Shown here: piece by piece, positions 3,113 through 21,709 of the stretch
Layout of the letters: every line of letters starts with the position of its first letter
Position numbering within the stretch: position 1 is the first letter of the stretch
IMG/VR virus record: IMGVR_UViG_3300046690_000528
Span: 1-21,709 of that record
Source of the DNA: a virus
DNA: 21,709 nucleotides
Reading direction: 5' to 3' (one strand)
Notes under the pieces: model-generated
What the model was told of the DNA's origin: nothing
Database searches by the model: none
Seen by the model: only the letters and a program-made list of their open reading frames with translations
Position numbers and translations under genes: made by a program

Positions 3113-3628
3113 ACCGAAGACCCTCGCGGAATGGTAGTACGTCGTTTTGCGGTCAATCGCAATCCAACGCTATCGAGTCATTCCTTGACTTTAGCTTAAT
3201 TTCACAAGGTTGCTACCTGAAAGGGCGACGGACAAGGCTAATGGCCACATAACCGAAGACGAAACGGTCGATGAACTTTGAAAAGCAGCCATTGGCGGCT
3301 CGTGGCGGCGAACGGCAGTTGTGGGTCCGAACTAGGCGGTTCAAAGCGACTTTGCCGATCCTTCCCGGGCGGCGATAGTTCAGGGGGTTGGAATGAAGGC
3401 GCAAGGCCTGTCATATATAAGATCACACAAACCAGATAAACAAACGAGAGAGCACATCCACATCCTGCGCAAACGAAGATAGGGACGCTTTTTTCGTTCG
3501 CAACGTTCGCTTGGACACATTTATAAGTAGAGAAATGGTGCGACGCCTAGCACGGTGCGTTATTGAACGCCTATTGTGTAATCAGGAAATGCAGTTTTCG
3601 CGCCGCGCGAATTTAGAACGCTTCCAAC
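3113..3628. other. Non-coding stretch with two repeat units
   Basis: The stretch contains an AAGCAGCCATTG...GGCAGTTGTGGGTC repeat unit (3281-3332) and copy 2 of the hairpin-bearing direct repeat (3376-3417). From about 3420 the sequence is more AT-rich and probably holds the leader of the lipoprotein gene. I could not identify a convincing promoter. No gene is supported. Confidence 0.4.
3376..3417. repeat. Direct repeat copy 2
   Basis: This matches 343-385 over about 41 bp (shared cores TAGTTCAGGGGG and GGCGCAAGGCCTGTCA). It has one extra T, one missing C and one substitution near the end. The missing C shortens the inverted repeat (A-AGGC-GCAAG-GCCT-G). The orientation is the same as copy 1, 3.03 kb away. 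Confidence 0.6.
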
Positions 3629-5359: not shown

Positions 5360-5885
5360 CCCGACACAGAAAACGCGCTGCACGCGCTGTGCTAAACAAA
5401 GGCGGATCTCGTACTAACCCGCGCTTTGGGTGCCGTCTTTTTCCAAAAACGTACCGTCACCAGCAGGCCGTTGTCAGGATCTGGATAAGCAATGGATCGA
5501 CTGCAGGCGCGTTAAATCCATTGGCAGGAGATCGTAAGCTCGATCCACTCGCCGGCGGGTGGGGCCACCTTGCGCTCCGCCGCTGCCAAAAGTCTTGGTT
5601 TGCCAAGCTGGAAGGCGAGCAACAATTGTTTGGGGCGGTCGTCTGTTACCCCGGGTATTGGCAAATCACATCAGATCTGAGCTCGTAGCCGCAGTGCCCC
5701 GGCTCCACTGCTAAGCGGGCAGCAGAGGGTTCGTAGACCGGCGGCGAGTGCTCCCGTCGCTCGGTAGCGACGCGAACAAGTGCCTTGCAGGCCGCCGCGC
5801 GGCGCTATACAACCAACGCCGCGCTAACTATAATCGCCCGCGAACAAAAGCAATCAGCAATCAAGACTTGGCACCGGGGAAACGA
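5360..5885. other. Leader/non-coding stretch before the ATPase-TOPRIM gene
   Basis: No supported gene. An ORF on the + strand (5311-5688) overlaps the end of the lipoprotein gene and has no ribosome binding site or recognisable protein pattern. A candidate -10 box lies near the right end. I saw no clear terminator after the lipoprotein gene. Confidence 0.4.
5829..5834 (+). promoter_or_regulatory. Candidate -10 box (TATAAT) for the ATPase-TOPRIM gene
   Basis: A perfect TATAAT lies 52 nt upstream of the ATG at 5886. No good -35 hexamer is found at 16-18 nt spacing (CTATAC is the nearest). If used, transcription would begin near 5841. This would exclude the longer ORF start at 5748 and support the ATG at 5886. 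Confidence 0.3.
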
Positions 5886-7574
5886 ATGCCGTCCATTAAA
5901 CTGAAAACTCTACGATTCGAGCAACCCGCATTCCGTAAGCTTGGCGATATCAAAATTCCATTCGCGGATCGGATGACGATAATCGCCGGTCACAACGGAA
6001 TCGGAAAATCAACCATCTTGGGAATTGTTTCAAACGGCTCCGGATTAAATAATAGCGAATATCAGAGCTATTTTCGCCGAATGTTTGTGGCTAATTTGTA
6101 TGACATAATTCACCTAGATCACGAGAGGGAGTTTCATTCTTACAAATCCGAGCAAAAACCATTGCCGTCGCCTTTTATCGACTATGATATTGATAATGCG
6201 TTGCTGGTAAAACGCAGCGCCGTGACGGAAAGGCGAAGCGAATCCCGTAACGAACAGCAAGTACGGGTTGTGCCGCGTAACGACCCTTACGAGGCCGTGA
6301 CAAGCTCTTCAGGAATTGAGATCGGCAAAGATGCCAAAGTGCCTTTGCCAACTTTGTACTTGGGCATGACCCGGATGCTACCTGTAGGCGAAAGTGAGCC
6401 ACGCTCAGTCACAAATTCCATAGAACAGACGTTCGATGCTAACGACGCTGGATTTATCGAAAAATTTATCGGCAGCGTGATTGGAACAGGATTATCGAGC
6501 AAAGCGTCGGGAAAGATCACTACGCAGTCAATTAAGGGAACTAAAAAGACAACGAAGCACCCGGAATACTCGTATCACACAAAATGCATTTCCCTTGGCC
6601 AAGACAGTCTTAGCGCCATTGCGACGGCACTCGCTTCGTTCAAAAAACTACAGCGCGAATGGAAAGAATATCCCGGCGGTCTTTTGGTTATTGACGAGAT
6701 CGATGCAGGCTTCCATCCGCACGCTCAGCAAAAGCTCGTAAAAGCGCTGTGCAACGCCGCTAGGGGTCTCCAGTTGCAGATTGTGGCGACAACACATTCC
6801 ATGTGCCTAATCGAGGCAGTCCACCCGGAATCGAACCCTGTCGGCAAAGGCGGGAAGCACGTCGACTCAGTTGTGTACCTAACCGACACATCACGCCCGC
6901 GAATCGCCGAAGGATATTCGCTAAACGACATTAGGCGGGATATGAGCTTACTTCCGCCAGAGGTCGCGGCGCGAAGTCAGGTGCCGGTCCTTAAGATCTA
7001 TCTAGAGGATCCGGAAGCGCATTTCTTCTTGGAGCGGCTGCTCACTCGAGCGCTGAAAATGCGAGTGAAACGCGAAGCAGGCGTACGCCTCAAGCCAATC
7101 CCGCTGAGCGTTGGTTGCAATAATCTTCAAAGTTTCCATAAGCACGACCCTTACTTCAACACTGTTCTGATCGTTTTGGATGCCGACGCATCAATCTCCG
7201 GTCCAGCTAGATCGAACAAAAACGTTGTTAAGCTGCCCGGCGGAAAGGATAGAAACGGTCGAGGCCTCTCTCCCGAACGCACGCTGCATGCATTTATTAA
7301 GGTTCTAGCGGATGACAATGACTCGTATCCGATAGCACGTGCAAAGCTCAAAAAACTCAAAGTTAGCAGCGATCAACTTCGAGAGCACTTGATCGACGGA
7401 TACGACACCCTCGGGGGTCGCGAAAACACAAAAGCATGGATGACGGCCCGGCTGACATTCATAGAACAATGGGAGTTGGTCGAGATGTGGCTCGAAGAAC
7501 ACCCTTATTACATCAAGGCGTTCAATGAAGCTTTTTTGGCGGCATCAATCGCAACGGCTAAATTTCTAAGGTAA
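5886..7574 (+). CDS. AAA ATPase fused to a TOPRIM domain (OLD / PARIS-like), probable anti-phage nuclease
   Basis: This is a 562-aa protein from ATG 5886. The frame is open 46 codons further upstream, but that part does not look like protein and includes the candidate promoter. ATPase part: the first strands lead to Walker A GHNGIGKST (residues 35-43). There is a signature-like SLGQDSLSAI, Walker B LLVIDEIDAG with D270/E271, and a switch histidine in ATTHS (H304). TOPRIM part: an acidic IYLEDPEAHFF motif (E374, D375, E377) and a VLDADAS motif (D432, D434), the metal-binding residues of topoisomerase-primase nucleases. This architecture matches the OLD family, which includes the Gabija subunit GajA, and fused AriA-AriB (PARIS) proteins. 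The ATPase would sense invasion and the TOPRIM would cut DNA or RNA. No UvrD-like helicase (GajB) or separate second subunit is next to it, so it would act alone. It is convergent with the SRAP gene, 69 nt from its stop codon. Confidence 0.85.
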   Translation: MPSIKLKTLRFEQPAFRKLGDIKIPFADRMTIIAGHNGIGKSTILGIVSNGSGLNNSEYQSYFRRMFVANLYDIIHLDHEREFHSYKSEQKPLPSPFIDYDIDNALLVKRSAVTERRSESRNEQQVRVVPRNDPYEAVTSSSGIEIGKDAKVPLPTLYLGMTRMLPVGESEPRSVTNSIEQTFDANDAGFIEKFIGSVIGTGLSSKASGKITTQSIKGTKKTTKHPEYSYHTKCISLGQDSLSAIATALASFKKLQREWKEYPGGLLVIDEIDAGFHPHAQQKLVKALCNAARGLQLQIVATTHSMCLIEAVHPESNPVGKGGKHVDSVVYLTDTSRPRIAEGYSLNDIRRDMSLLPPEVAARSQVPVLKIYLEDPEAHFFLERLLTRALKMRVKREAGVRLKPIPLSVGCNNLQSFHKHDPYFNTVLIVLDADASISGPARSNKNVVKLPGGKDRNGRGLSPERTLHAFIKVLADDNDSYPIARAKLKKLKVSSDQLREHLIDGYDTLGGRENTKAWMTARLTFIEQWELVEMWLEEHPYYIKAFNEAFLAASIATAKFLR

Positions 7575-14778: not shown

Positions 14779-17700
14779 TCAAGCTGGTCCGCCGCCATCC
14801 CTCGGACCGCCATCACCACCGGGCGGCGAAGCAACAACCGGTGTGCCGGTCGACACGCTGCCCCACGAGTTGTAGGCATAGACGGTGTAGGTCTCTGCGT
14901 CCTGGTCGATCGTGCAGGTTCCCGTCGTGCTGTCGCATACGACGACGCCGTCCGGATCCGCGACACGATAGCCAGCGACATCCGGATAGCCCGCGACGCT
15001 CATCAACAAAGTCACTGTGGTGTCCCCGCCAGTTACGGCCACGCTCGGCGCAGGCGGAGGCTGGTTCGTGACGGTGATCGTGCCGGGATTGCCTGAACCA
15101 GCGATGTTGCCGGCGGCCACCTTCACGTCGAACGTGCCCGCGACGGCGCCGTAGAACTTCGCCTGATCAAGCGTCCAGGTAAAGTTCTGTGCCGTGATTT
15201 CCGCCCCGTATTTGACGACGCCGCCCACCACCACACTAACGTCGAAATAATCGACATCCGGCAGGCGCTGGATCTCGATCGACAGTTGATTGCCGGCAAA
15301 CGGTTCGCGCAACGTGAGCACAGGTGGCGCCGGCGGATATCTGAACTCGTCGACCGTTCCTGTCCAGGTCGCAAACGGACCTGGCAACCCGCTGGCGCCA
15401 TATGCGCGCACGCGAAACTCCCACGTCCCCAGCGCGATAGGCACGGTCAGGACATTGCCCGCCGACGTGCCGAGCTGCGCCCACGTCACGCCAGCGTCGA
15501 GGCTGCCCTGATACTCGTACAGCAATGCCCCTGCGGCCGGCGACGCGGTGATCGACACATAGCCCGGCGTGATTTTCGAGTTGGCACTCACCTGCGCAAT
15601 GATCGGCGCGTGGATCACGCCCGGCAGAAGCGACGGCGACACGGGCGCAGGCGGGTTCATGCCGGTCTCGGCAGTGTGAGGACTTTCCGCGTTGTTCACG
15701 AACGTCAGCTCAACCTGCCCGTCGCGCGGCGTCGCCTTGATCAGCCGGACGTCCTGCGCAATCCGGTCGAGCGCCGGACCAAACGAAAACCGCGTCGGCT
15801 CTTCCGAGTGACCGTCGCTAAAGTCGAAGAGCTCCGGCAACGGATCCACCAGCATCATCGACATGCCGTCGGCATCGCCAGCCGGCTGCGCAACGCGAAG
15901 CGCTGCCGTCGGGGCCCCATTGCGCTGAGCGAAATAGACATAATGCTGTGCGCCGGCCGTCCATTCAAGCTGCTCACTGACGTCGACGCGCACCCCATCA
16001 AAACTCTCGACGACACCGGAAATGCCCCACTTCGGCAAATCGTGTGAGATTCCAACCAGATCGCCATAAAGCGGAATCAGACCGTCCAGCTCGGTCGTGA
16101 TCATGATTGTCTTGCGTTGATCGCGGTTCGCATAGGCCATATAAATGCCCTCGCGCCATGCCTGCGCACGCTTCGTAGGGCCGACCATCTGGATCCGCTT
16201 TTCGACCAAAGCCGGCGAGCCCGTCGGAACACAGGCGACGTCCTGCCATGACCACGTAGTCTCATCCATGTATTCGACCGTCACGTAGTCCGGCGAATCA
16301 ACGCTGAAGAACCCGTAATCCGCCTCAAATGAACCCGCCACGATGTTCTGCGGCGTGTACATTGCCGTGCGAACGGTCTTCAGCTCATCCCGCACGATGC
16401 TGATTACTCCGCCGAAGTACATCGGGATTGCCCGGCCAGCACGGCAGATCGTAGTCAGCGCATCCCAGAACGATCCCTTCGTATCGAACACGCCGTTGAA
16501 CTCGTCGCCACGCGAAGTCCACACTGCATCGAGACGTTCCAGCGCATCAATGTCCAGCCGCTTGTCAGGCAAGCCAAGACTATAGTCGGCGTTGCGGACC
16601 GCATCAGCTATCGCCCATGCAATGCTCCTTGTCGGTTGCGGATCGCTCCACCCACTCCCCGTCCAGATCGGCAGCTTTCGTGTCGCGATCACGTGCACGT
16701 CGTGCGCCGTGCTTGAATTCAGCGAATTCGTGGCTCGCGCGCGCATCGCCAGCAAAGTCACATTGCCGTAATATCGCTCGCTCGGCAGGTAGGCGCGCAA
16801 TGCCGCCCACTGAATCCGGTTCTGGGCACGCGTGTCCGTGTTCAGATTTGTCGTGCGGCGCATGCGGACCTCGTAGCGGCCCGGAGTGACGCTGTAACGG
16901 TACGAGATCATTTGCGGCTGGGAGGTCGCCATACTGAGCTCCCGCAGATCAAGCCCGATCCAGTCACCTGCCGCTGCGCCGGCGTCGTCAATGAGCCGCG
17001 CCTGCGCCTCAAATGTAAGCGAGAGGTTCTGCAGCGAACCGTCGTCGGCCGCGTAAAAGAGCCCCGACGGTAGCGTGATGTCAAGCCCGATAAAATTCGC
17101 CGCGCTCGCTGCCGGATTGGCAACAAATGGCCCGACCCAGTCGCCGCTATCGTTTGGCGCCTGCAGTTCGATCCCGCTAACTGCATCACTCGTTACGACG
17201 TTATCGGGAAAAAGCGTGACCGCCTGGTTCGGCCCGATAACCTGATAGTCAATCTCGCTGAAATTGCCGATGTCCGTCGTACCGATCAGGACCTGTTCGA
17301 TCTCGATCTCGCCTTTCGAAATGCAGAAAAGCTGATACACGTAGAGATCGTTGCCCAGATACTCCGTGTACGGTGTTGCTGCCAGGTCGGGCGTGACGTT
17401 CATCCGGCCATAGAGAACTGGAATCGCCTCAAGCAGCCTTGCGGCGTTGCCGCTAGCCGATAGCGAATAGGTCGGGCTGTTCGTGACGCCCTGCGCGACG
17501 CTGGCCGTTTTGGCTGGGACGATCGCGTTGATCAGCATCGAACCCGCAGCCATGACGGCCATCGACACGCCAGTTGAGACAACGGCGTACGACGTCGCCA
17601 TACCCGCAGCTGCTGCCGCTGCGGCCGACGACGCCCCAGTGTAGGCAGCCGCAGCAGCACCGCCCGTGTAGACCGAAGCAACAGCCACTGCAACCAGCAG

Positions 17701-17976
17701 TATGGCCTGCAGGGGATTTGATCCGCCACCGCCTTTTGGTACAGGAATGAACTGCACGATCGCCCCGTGCGGGATCGGCCTTTCCCAATCGCTCCTTAAC
17801 CAGTAATCGCTGTCCACGCAGATGATCGTGTGCTGCGTGTCGACGCCGACCCGCTCGGCCCACTCTGCAGGCGTCAATGGCGAGTCCAGCTCATAGACCT
17901 GCCGGCCCTGCGCATGACAATACGGATTCACGGCGCGAACGATCGTCGCCTTATAGGAAGCTGTACCAGCTAGCAC
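14779..17976 (-). CDS. Tail tip / host-specificity protein (gpJ-like) with C-terminal Fn3-type domains
   Basis: This is a protein of about 1065 aa. The frame is open to 18321, but the first 115 codons of that ORF are a shadow of the NlpC/P60 gene. The best start is GTG 17976 (VLAGTASYKATIVRAVNPYC), with GGGG about 8 nt before it, overlapping the NlpC/P60 gene by 26 nt. The N-terminal part includes an Ala/Gly-rich hydrophobic stretch (about 68-130), as in other gpJ-like tail tip proteins. The middle (ARLLEAIPVLYGRMNVTPDL; RAGRAIPMYFGGVISIV) matches the conserved core of lambda gpJ and related central tail fibres. From about 790 onward there are repeated beta-sandwich units (APIIAQVSANSKITPGYVSI; APPVLTLREPFAGNQL; APSVAVTGGDTTVTLLMS), probably Fn3 domains, ending in a Gly-rich tail. 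It would form the tail tip that contacts the receptor and starts DNA ejection. Confidence 0.85.
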   Translation of the reverse strand: MLAGTASYKATIVRAVNPYCHAQGRQVYELDSPLTPAEWAERVGVDTQHTIICVDSDYWLRSDWERPIPHGAIVQFIPVPKGGGGSNPLQAILLVAVAVASVYTGGAAAAAYTGASSAAAAAAAGMATSYAVVSTGVSMAVMAAGSMLINAIVPAKTASVAQGVTNSPTYSLSASGNAARLLEAIPVLYGRMNVTPDLAATPYTEYLGNDLYVYQLFCISKGEIEIEQVLIGTTDIGNFSEIDYQVIGPNQAVTLFPDNVVTSDAVSGIELQAPNDSGDWVGPFVANPAASAANFIGLDITLPSGLFYAADDGSLQNLSLTFEAQARLIDDAGAAAGDWIGLDLRELSMATSQPQMISYRYSVTPGRYEVRMRRTTNLNTDTRAQNRIQWAALRAYLPSERYYGNVTLLAMRARATNSLNSSTAHDVHVIATRKLPIWTGSGWSDPQPTRSIAWAIADAVRNADYSLGLPDKRLDIDALERLDAVWTSRGDEFNGVFDTKGSFWDALTTICRAGRAIPMYFGGVISIVRDELKTVRTAMYTPQNIVAGSFEADYGFFSVDSPDYVTVEYMDETTWSWQDVACVPTGSPALVEKRIQMVGPTKRAQAWREGIYMAYANRDQRKTIMITTELDGLIPLYGDLVGISHDLPKWGISGVVESFDGVRVDVSEQLEWTAGAQHYVYFAQRNGAPTAALRVAQPAGDADGMSMMLVDPLPELFDFSDGHSEEPTRFSFGPALDRIAQDVRLIKATPRDGQVELTFVNNAESPHTAETGMNPPAPVSPSLLPGVIHAPIIAQVSANSKITPGYVSITASPAAGALLYEYQGSLDAGVTWAQLGTSAGNVLTVPIALGTWEFRVRAYGASGLPGPFATWTGTVDEFRYPPAPPVLTLREPFAGNQLSIEIQRLPDVDYFDVSVVVGGVVKYGAEITAQNFTWTLDQAKFYGAVAGTFDVKVAAGNIAGSGNPGTITVTNQPPPAPSVAVTGGDTTVTLLMSVAGYPDVAGYRVADPDGVVVCDSTTGTCTIDQDAETYTVYAYNSWGSVSTGTPVVASPPGGDGGPRDGGGPA

Positions 17977-18340
17977 GTGGATACCCCACTTTTTTAAGTT
18001 TTGACCGCTCGGTGAAGATGACGCCCGCCCCCTCCTGCGCGTGAAGCACTCCGCCGCCGTCGAGATTGAGATACACGCCAACGTGCGGACGATCTCCACC
18101 GCGAAGCAGCACACCGCACCCGTGCACGGGCCGCGCGATGACGTTCCACGCCCCCGAGTCCATCTGTTCGCGATAGAGGTCTCGCCGCATGTCTGGCATC
18201 GCGGGCAGCTCCGGTAGTACAAGATCGAAGTGGTGAAGCTGGACCCAGCGCAGCAGTCCCCAGCAGTCGAAGCAGTCGGGACCCCGAGCACCGTCCGCCC
18301 AGGGGAGGCCGATGTAGGCATTAGCCTGTTCTGGCGTCAT
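17951..18340 (-). CDS. Tail assembly protein, NlpC/P60 peptidase fold
   Basis: This is a 129-aa protein from ATG 18340. The motif GPDCFDCWGLLRWV carries the catalytic cysteine (probably Cys26 in DCWG), and RPHVGVYL carries the catalytic histidine about 60 residues later. This is the papain-like fold of NlpC/P60 cell-wall peptidases. In lambda-like phages this corresponds to the peptidase domain of gpK, the tail tip protein that cuts peptidoglycan during infection. The start overlaps the stop of the DUF1833-like gene by 4 nt (ATGA), and its 3' end overlaps the gpJ-like gene. A LysM/JAB domain as in full gpK is absent. Confidence 0.85.
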   Translation of the reverse strand: MTPEQANAYIGLPWADGARGPDCFDCWGLLRWVQLHHFDLVLPELPAMPDMRRDLYREQMDSGAWNVIARPVHGCGVLLRGGDRPHVGVYLNLDGGGVLHAQEGAGVIFTERSKLKKVGYPRASWYSFL

Positions 18341-18876
18341 CGCACGAGCCCCGGAAAGACGTCCGGGCTATAGACGTCCGAAGGAAATGGACTGTTGTTG
18401 ATGTCGGTGAGCGCCGCCGTCGCCGTGACCCGCGTCAAAGTTGCTTTGGCACTCGCGACATATAGCGTCAGCGGTTCTTCGTCGTGCGGCCCTGCAGCCG
18501 GATTGGAGGCGAGAAAACGTCTGTGAGTGCATTCGATTTTCTCGGTCTGCGTAACCGCACTTTCGAGATGGCCGATAATCTGGGCGCTCGCACCGTCGAT
18601 CACGATGTCGATTTGCGGCGCCTGCCCCTCCTCCATCGACGGTAGCGCAAACTGGAACGCAACGGCGGTGAAGGTCACGCTCTGTCCCGCGTTTAGCGGT
18701 GCATCACTCTCCAGTGTTGCGACCAGATCGTTATAGTCGGCGACCACGCGGATCGGCGCGGGATTGCCCGCATCATCGATAAACGACGAATGCCGCAATT
18801 CCAGCGTCGTCAGCACGACCTCGTCTTGCGGATTGCTGGCGTAGACTTCCGCCAGCGCCTCAGTGATTGTCGCCAT
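18337..18876 (-). CDS. Minor tail protein, DUF1833-like
   Basis: This is a 179-aa protein starting at ATG 18876 (MATITEALAEVYASNPQDEV). GAGGTGG lies 5 nt upstream and decides against the ATG at 18885. The pattern 'L.E.YAS.P....V.l.TLEL.H..F.....P..vv.d..d..a.LE..ap.nag..V.F..vaF.f..P....G....i.i.iD' fits the phage DUF1833 family found between the tail genes and NlpC/P60 in many proteobacterial siphophages. It is all-beta and probably part of the tail tip, equivalent in position to lambda gpL. Its start overlaps the previous stop by one base (TGATG) and its stop overlaps the next start (ATGA). Confidence 0.75.
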   Translation of the reverse strand: MATITEALAEVYASNPQDEVVLTTLELRHSSFIDDAGNPAPIRVVADYNDLVATLESDAPLNAGQSVTFTAVAFQFALPSMEEGQAPQIDIVIDGASAQIIGHLESAVTQTEKIECTHRRFLASNPAAGPHDEEPLTLYVASAKATLTRVTATAALTDINNSPFPSDVYSPDVFPGLVR

Positions 18877-19373
18877 CAGTTCCACCTCATCGGACCGGGT
18901 AACTGCACGTGTATGAGTTCGTGAAGCGAGTCACTCATTGCCGCAATTTCGGCCTCTGTGTACGCACGCAACACTTCATATTCATCTCGCGACGGCAACG
19001 GCAGCGCCTTCACTTCAAGCGTGGCGGTCACGTCGAGCCAGGCACGCGAGTCGCTGATCGCTGACTTGTACGGCGGATCGTCCATGAATCTCGCCTGCAC
19101 CTGATTCACCCCCATACCGTTGAGCAGACCGACAGCGAACCAGTCCGTGCCAAGATTGATTTCGTATGCCAGAAACCCTTCAAAGATCGCGTGCTGCGCG
19201 TGCGTGAAGCGCCACGTCACCGACACGTGCGATGGGAGACTGGTGAAGCGGCGCCGCTGTCGGGCTGCACCGTTGTCCATATCGGTTCGCGCGTACGGTG
19301 TCACCGGCTGGATGCCATAACCGCTCGCACGCGGATCCGGCAGCGTGGCTGGCCACGTCGGAAGATCTGCCAT
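18876..19373 (-). CDS. Minor tail protein (gpM-position), function unknown in detail
   Basis: This is a 165-aa protein from ATG 19373, overlapping the tape measure stop by one base (TGATG). It starts MADLPTWPATLPDPRASGYG and contains a beta-rich core (VSVTWRFTHAQHAIFEGFLA, GTDWFAVGLLNG, AWLDVTATLEVKALPLP). 'P.wP..LP.p...gy......' followed by a 'v...w..t..q...f..f......G..wF.' pattern is common in minor tail proteins encoded right after the tape measure gene. It would be equivalent in position to lambda gpM. A structural role at the tail tip is inferred from order only. Confidence 0.7.
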   Translation of the reverse strand: MADLPTWPATLPDPRASGYGIQPVTPYARTDMDNGAARQRRRFTSLPSHVSVTWRFTHAQHAIFEGFLAYEINLGTDWFAVGLLNGMGVNQVQARFMDDPPYKSAISDSRAWLDVTATLEVKALPLPSRDEYEVLRAYTEAEIAAMSDSLHELIHVQLPGPMRWN

Positions 19374-21611
19374 CAGGTTTGCCCCACGGTTCGGTTAAGC
19401 CCGTACTGCTGCTGCATGGTGCGGGCCGTCGCACCCCGGCCTGATCGGATGCCGGAAGCAATGTGCTGGTCGACCTTTTCCAGAATAACGTCGAGCCGCA
19501 TACCGCCGTTCGGCATCTTCGTCTGGTTGACCTGGGCACCGGCCGGCGCGTTGTGGATATGCAGATCGACGTTCGGTCCTGATACCGAGGCGCCCGACGA
19601 GTCGTCTCCAACATACCCACCGTTAGCGAAGCGATTGCGGCCACTGACACCATGACCGCCGTTAAGAGCCTGCAGAAACGAGCGAACGCCCGGCTGCGAG
19701 ACGACGCTCTCCTTCACTACAAACTCACCATTCGAGAGCTTCGCGTTGATGCTGTCGCTGGTTCCTGTGCCCGGCCCCGACACGTCGCCACCGCCTGCGA
19801 ACATCAACCCGGCATCGGCGCCGAACAACGCGCCGCTGCCCTGAATGGACGACGGCATCGTAAAGCCGTATGCCGCGCTTCCCGTTGCCGCCGTCGACGT
19901 CGGAAAGATCGAGCCAAACAGGCCGTTGACGATGCTCGAATACGCCTTGTTCGCGAAAAGCTGCGCGAACGAAGCGAGCATGCTGGATACCATCGACTGA
20001 ACGGCCTGTGCGGGCGTTCTGGAACCCGTCACGATGTCCGAGAACATCCCGGAGAAAGCACTCTTGCCGGCGTCGGCGAAGTCCTGAAAGTAGTTCTGGC
20101 TATCGAGCATCGACTGCCGGATCTTGTCGCGCAACTGGTCAAGGTTGCGCAGCACACCCTCGTCGGTCGTTTGCCACGAAAGCCTGTTCACCTGCTCATA
20201 CAGGGACTGCAGCGACTGCACGGTGTCGGCCGAATTCGAACGCAATTGCGAAAACGCATCGAGCAGACCGGTCACGCCCGTCTGCTGGTCGAGGGAAATA
20301 CTGTTTTGTGCCTCTTTCGATTGCGTGATCACGTCGTTGTATTGAGCGATCAGCAACGTGAGCTGCCGGTTCTGGTCGAGGAATGCGGCGCCACTCAGAT
20401 CGCCCGTCGTCGCCGCCTGCAGCATCGCACCGCGGTTCTTTTCATCGTACTCGTGTGCAGCCTTTGGAGCGCTCACACCCGACTGCGCGAGAAGCGCATC
20501 GCGTGTATCTTCGATGGACTTCTGGTACTTGCGCTGCGCCTCTGTCTGCTGCGTCAGGTAGACAGCATCCTTCGCTGCGTTATCCTGCCGGACCTTGGTA
20601 ATTTTCGTATCGACTTCACCGATCTCCTGCGTGATCTTGATCCGTTCGTCGAGCGGCGCTCTCCAGTACGCATCCTGCAGCGTTTTCTTCTCCTGCTCGT
20701 AGGCCGCGATCTGCTTCTGAGCGGCATCATCGGCCGCTGTGATTTCTGCCGTGTAGAAAGTCTGGTCGGAAATCAAAGTGGCTTTGTGCAGCGCCTGCAA
20801 CTGGTCGTCCGCCGCCTTGTACGCCGACTGGATCAGGTCCAGCCCGTTTTTGGTCGTCTGCAAGGCAGCGTCCAGCATGCTCTTGCGGATCCTGTTTGCT
20901 TCGGACTGCCCCGAGTGGTCGCTGTACTGCTTGCGCAGATAAGCCTCATCGGCGGCCTGCTGCTGCTTCGAAACAGGACTGTTCGGATTGGCCTTGTTGT
21001 ACTCCGCGACCTTTTTGCGATAGTCATCCAGCGCCTGACTGACGCGGCTAATGCCTTTTTCCTCGTCCTGCAGCTTCTTCAGGAAGTCAGACGCGGCGAT
21101 GCCGGCCTGTTGCGTTTGCGCCTGTAGCGACTTCTCCGTCGCTGCATCCTGCGCACGCAAAGCATCACGATTCAGCGATTCAAGCTTCGCCTGCGCCGCC
21201 TGAAGCTGCGGTTGCAGCAGATCGGCATTCATCTGGCCGCTGGGTGCATTCAACGCGTTTTGCAACCGCTGCACCTCCGCCGTTGCGCTTGTGATCTGCT
21301 CGGCAGCCGTCTCCGCGCGACCGATAGATTTCATCCATTCCCACGCGCCACTGACGGCATTGCCAACTTTTCGCCACGCAGTTTCCAGCAGCCCCAGATT
21401 CTTGAGGGATTCGTTGCGTAGCTGGTCGTCGAGCGCCTTCGCGACAACGAGCATTGCGCCCTGCTTGTCGCCCACGTCTTCAAGCTGCCGGATGTAATCG
21501 TATTGCGCGGTCGTGATGAAGTGCATGCTCTGGTTATGCTGCTCGGCCCACTTCGCCACGCCTTCGGGCATCCTGGCGTAATCCTTCGCGATATCGTCGA
21601 GCTTCTCACCG
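19373..21611 (-). CDS. Tail tape measure protein, 5' end removed by an IS insertion
   Basis: An open frame of 732 codons exists from ATG 21571. The same frame continues 13 codons upstream (GEKLDDIAKDYAR) until it meets the IS end at about 21612, so the native gene began further upstream. The protein is long, helical and rich in Ala/Gln/Asp. It has many coiled-coil stretches (LQNALNAPSGQMNADLLQPQ; AADDQLQALHKATLIS; LRDKIRQSMLDSQNYFQDF) and a C-terminal Gly/Ser-rich region (GGDVSGPGTGTSDSINAKLS, NGEFVVKESVV). The latter is the usual C-terminal signature of lambda-type tape measure proteins. Tape measure proteins set tail length and pass into the host at DNA ejection. The N-terminal part is lost or separated, so functional virions are not expected from this copy. 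Confidence 0.85.
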
Positions 21612-21709
21612 TGTTGATTTGCATGGAATCCTGACCCACGATTTGCATTGAATTCTGACCCACCCGTTGGACCAGCTTTGCGGGTTATTCGGTGGGTATC
21701 TGGGTCTTC
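21612..21709. mobile_element. Terminus of an IS21-family-like insertion sequence
   Basis: The sequence starts with TGTTGATTTGCATGG and holds two tandem 24-bp repeats (21616-21639 and 21640-21663) of the type GATTTGCAT(G/T)GAAT(C/T)CTGACCCAC, identical except for two positions. A third partial match (GTGGGTATCTGGG) may follow. IS21-type elements have TG...CA ends with several internal terminal repeats of this kind. The other end and the istA/istB genes lie outside the window. The exact junction (21611-21614) cannot be fixed without the target duplication. Confidence 0.75.

Follow-up and report, generated by a model that had tools for sequence, protein, structure and literature searches.

What interrupted the tape measure gene with which this phage sequence ends, and what became of the phage as a result? 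The DNA analyzed here, which we call the window, is the whole of IMG/VR virus record IMGVR_UViG_3300046690_000528, 21709 bases in length, and it runs out 98 bases into a mobile element. We consider it very probable that the window represents part of a siphovirus-like phage or prophage of the Paraburkholderia type in which an element of the IS21 family lies within the tape measure gene, an arrangement that likely put an end to virion production.

The remainder of the tape measure gene occupies positions 19373-21611 on the minus strand and, as counted against intact homologues of 942 amino acids, consists of codons 198-942 and the stop codon, preceded by a single base of codon 197; codons 1-196, together with the other two bases of codon 197, are missing from the window. 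Its identity is indicated by a match to the tape measure profile phrog_24 (E = 9.1e-51 for the remainder and 1.5e-91 for the intact protein of the related viral locus L006) together with its place upstream of the tail-tip genes. Relatives of this gene are encoded in ten viral loci and the frame is open across the junction site in every one of them. Both the start and the stop are present in seven of the ten, the other three running off their contigs at the 3' end, and the intact proteins have 942 amino acids in L006, L007, L008 and L014 and 933-940 in L009, L010 and L013. A search of the genus of L016, a prophage of Paraburkholderia sp. BL9I2N2, yielded two close relatives without stops that are likewise open across the site, in G001 and G022 (96 and 81% identical, respectively), the other matches from that search being at most 44% identical. 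For purposes of annotation, then, the gene in the window does not represent a naturally short tape measure.

The point at which the tape measure sequence gives way can be placed to the base. It reaches 21611, and the final 98 bases (21612-21709) are the right, or istB-side, end of an IS21-family element on the minus strand, truncated where the record stops; in the frame of L006 the element lies after codon 196 plus two bases. When the last 500 bases were compared by blastn with the ten related viral loci, the alignment started at query base 99 (= 21611) in seven cases and at query bases 100, 104 and 108 in the remaining three, and four plasmid loci with IS21-type ends gave blastn matches that stopped at query base 98-100. 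The IS end starts TGTTGATTTGCATGG at 21612 and carries two terminal repeats of 24 bp, R1 (21616-21639) and R2 (21640-21663), which Tandem Repeats Finder reports as a two-copy tandem repeat (21616-21663) with 91% matches; elsewhere in the window, no stretch matches the first 20 bases of this end with fewer than 5 mismatches. A preliminary description of this DNA had the tape measure frame continuing past its first ATG to about 21611 and there meeting a TG-starting end with tandem 24-bp repeats, which it took for the end of an IS21-type insertion inside the gene. The junction proves to be exactly 21611|21612, the TG and the repeats are where they were said to be, and complete istA/istB copies elsewhere, along with the intact tape measure relatives, bear out the type and the position of the end. 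That description overlooked the last seven codons of istB (KTQIPTE) and their stop at 21685-21708 on the minus strand, which were recognized by comparison with other IstB C-termini (KTQTPTA in L002, KTQTPIA in L055). The record contains neither a second IS end nor a target duplication nor the start of the tape measure gene.

The complete copies of the element, with the edges of which the end in the window coincides, were found in bacterial DNA. Among plasmid records searched by blastn, a like end adjoins istB in Caballeronia and a Paraburkholderia plasmid contains a 97% match, and in a first look at 144 genomes of the Paraburkholderia genus, scored for at most six candidates per genome, 44 had some match to the 98 bases and 13 had a match of at least 94% identity over at least 88 of them. 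Twenty places were fetched; at twelve of them the element is complete, with a length of 2468-2469 bp, and at the other eight the contig ends 113-296 bases into it. The right end in the window differs at 2 of 98 positions from five complete copies of one genome, at 5 of 98 from six other copies and, in an ungapped alignment, at 18 of 98 from one further copy. Eleven of the twelve encode an istA frame of 508 codons and an istB frame of 258 or 264 codons, both frames being shorter in the L057 copy, and the L055 proteins match the NCBIfam IS21 transposase (IstA) and the IS21 helper ATPase (IstB) above cut-off. The left ends of the complete copies also start TGTTGATTTGCA, and the TG and the two repeats of the end in the window agree with the 5'-TG ... 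CA-3' termini and the multiple repeats per end that characterize the IS21 family. Two repeats per end is the arrangement described for IS21 (PMC10122671), for which it is also described that it is IstA that links the terminal CA ends with the target DNA, that IstB is required for correct target duplications and that the experimental direct repeat is 5 bp (PMC10122671; see also PMC11208146). A perfect direct repeat surrounds only two of our twelve complete copies (8 and 9 bases). The other ten of this set (L055-L063 and L070-L072) are without one, and our guess is that this reflects recombination between copies.

Downstream of the tape measure gene, and likewise on the minus strand, the window encodes an intact virion or tail protein (18876-19373; phrog_384; 98% identical, without gaps, to that of L006), an intact minor tail protein of the DUF1833 type (18337-18885) and an intact NlpC/P60 tail protein (17951-18340), the last two recognized by profile matches and by comparison with relatives. 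These are followed by a tail tip or host-specificity protein resembling J (14779-17962), which in a longer frame matches phrog_469 and phrog_31, and for which the start of the 1061-amino-acid frame was used in the comparison with relatives. In the window, what remains of the tape measure gene and the tail and lysis genes retain their full length and are colinear with those of relatives, the alignments to L006 or L047 are ungapped in all rows compared, and the genes compared carry no other lesions. The J-like protein is 91% identical to that of L006 and 62% to that of L016, where the figures for the adjoining tail genes are 98% and 90-96%; such low conservation is as expected for a host-range protein. 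On the far side, beyond the lysis genes, lie a methyltransferase, a SRAP peptidase and an AAA ATPase, all of them cargo-like. The ATPase (5748-7574; 608 amino acids) has weak and generic matches to defense ATPases of the PtuA, AriA and GajA kinds. In the G022 locus L097 other open reading frames (373 and 629 amino acids) adjoin the methyltransferase, so that cargo may be exchanged on this side of the phage genome. A dispersed repeat of ~110 bp occurs in full at 3310-3418 and in part at 343-385 of the window; of 58 Paraburkholderia genomes searched, 13 have copies, which are 75-93% identical and often partial, and G022 and G145, records that bear the prophage, have it on the methyltransferase side.

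Sequence divergence within the tape measure gene provides some insight into the age of the event. Over the 732 codons that run from the first ATG of the remainder (19373-21571), the window and L006 differ with a dN of 0.006 and a dS of 0.072. When the differences were polarised by L007, L016 and L008, 5 amino-acid-changing and 8 silent codons fell on the window branch and 4 and 9, respectively, on the L006 branch, 4 differing codons being ambiguous and all of these numbers small. Within those 732 codons, and again with small numbers, we saw no decay, nor were amino-acid changes overrepresented on the window branch. The preliminary description had left a choice between domestication and a recent inactivation. 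We favor recent inactivation, since the other tail and lysis genes are full length and colinear and since the substitutions on the two sister branches are alike; domestication finds no echo in the tail and lysis genes, which are intact and colinear, or in the tape measure substitutions, and neither further lesions nor relaxed selection are to be seen in the genes compared.

Lambda-like phages without a whole tape measure are not known to form normal tails. This copy of the phage is probably defective for virions, because loss of the whole tape measure should prevent normal tails from being made. The tape measure frame is open past the ATG at 21571 to the junction and then through the IS end to the end of the contig, and of the 12 complete elements, 11 have 47 open codons in the corresponding frame and L057 has 32. 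A fusion protein begun inside the element and continuing into the tape measure remainder was considered and is unlikely, because none of the 12 elements has an ATG, GTG or TTG among its open codons leading into that frame.

In the scenario that we prefer, an IS21-family element of ~2.47 kb, with istA and then istB in the orientation of the tape measure gene and reading toward its remainder, would have entered codon 197 (of 942) behind its second base. In keeping with the established mechanism of IS21, the IstA transposase would have cut at the terminal CA while IstB chose and shaped the target, and the element would have become joined to phage DNA at 21611. The gene would thereby be divided into an N-terminal piece outside the record and a 745-codon remainder without a start codon in the stretch of element frame leading into it, and virion formation would be lost while the other genes stay intact. 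The record most likely ends inside the element because short-read assemblies break at repeated IS copies; a contig end within the element, as at eight of the 20 fetched places, points the same way.

Simple insertion is the default reading of such a junction, and the single edge visible in the record could also have been left by deletion or recombination between IS copies, with the tape measure start and the head genes lost or located elsewhere. One end alone is no proof of simple insertion because only two of the twelve complete copies have a perfect repeat, and the ten without one are what recombination or loss of a flank would be expected to leave. The window itself, however, has no sign of a deletion, its tail and lysis genes being colinear with those of relatives, and we regard this alternative as unlikely, if worth keeping in mind. 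Far less probable is that the junction is an assembly chimera that joins an unrelated copy of the IS to a phage contig. Metagenome assemblies do form chimeras at repeats, and the exact junction is absent from the other viral and genome contigs searched. It also counts against the preferred scenario that the exact junction does not recur, that the expected mate junction, i.e., the tape measure start joined to the left IS end, is absent from the viral contigs searched, and that the IS end itself is absent from other viral contigs (by exact and looser patterns). The last 310 bases had no blastn match among phage records. Against a chimera, the join coincides precisely with the terminal TG/CA of the element. 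By eye, moreover, no long word is common to the IS end and the sequence of relatives at this site, so that an assembler would have lacked anything on which to join the two.

A domesticated prophage, in which the other genes have long been kept without a virion function, would be in keeping with the cargo-like methyltransferase, SRAP peptidase and AAA ATPase; the intact tail and lysis genes, the absence of decay among the tape measure substitutions and the intact tape measure of close relatives nevertheless make it a very improbable account. We attach just as little probability to the idea that the insertion yielded a stable tail-less carrier that retains for the host its lysis genes and its cargo (methyltransferase, SRAP peptidase and defense-like ATPase), which, if true, would represent domestication at an early stage, before decay has set in. 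As an insertion in the tape measure gene, the event would be an ordinary one, i.e., a further example of a prophage gene inactivated by an IS, and the record is best annotated as a truncated phage fragment that ends in an IS and not at a phage terminus. In those parts of the literature that we consulted no IS insertion in a tape measure gene was identified, which does not imply that none is in print.

Among known systems, the closest counterpart on the phage side is the prophage of Paraburkholderia sp. BL9I2N2, which has a tape measure 95% identical to the remainder in the window and colinear tail and lysis genes; it differs in that its tape measure gene is intact, and the IS end of the window was not found in that genome. 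On the side of the element, two IS21-family members named in plasmid-record annotations share the istA-istB order. IS1326 of R100 has a right end that is 83% identical over 58 bases, whereas its IstA and IstB are 64 and 69% identical to those of the L055 copy. IS1600 of pENH91, compared at the protein level, has the nearest named IstA among those compared (69%), with an IstB that is 73% identical. Much closer are the unnamed IS21-like elements of Paraburkholderia and Caballeronia, which are located elsewhere and exist as 2468-bp copies with 2-5 mismatches per 98 bases in the right end, the Caballeronia IstB being 89% identical to that of L055, and the element to which they belong may already have a name in ISfinder.
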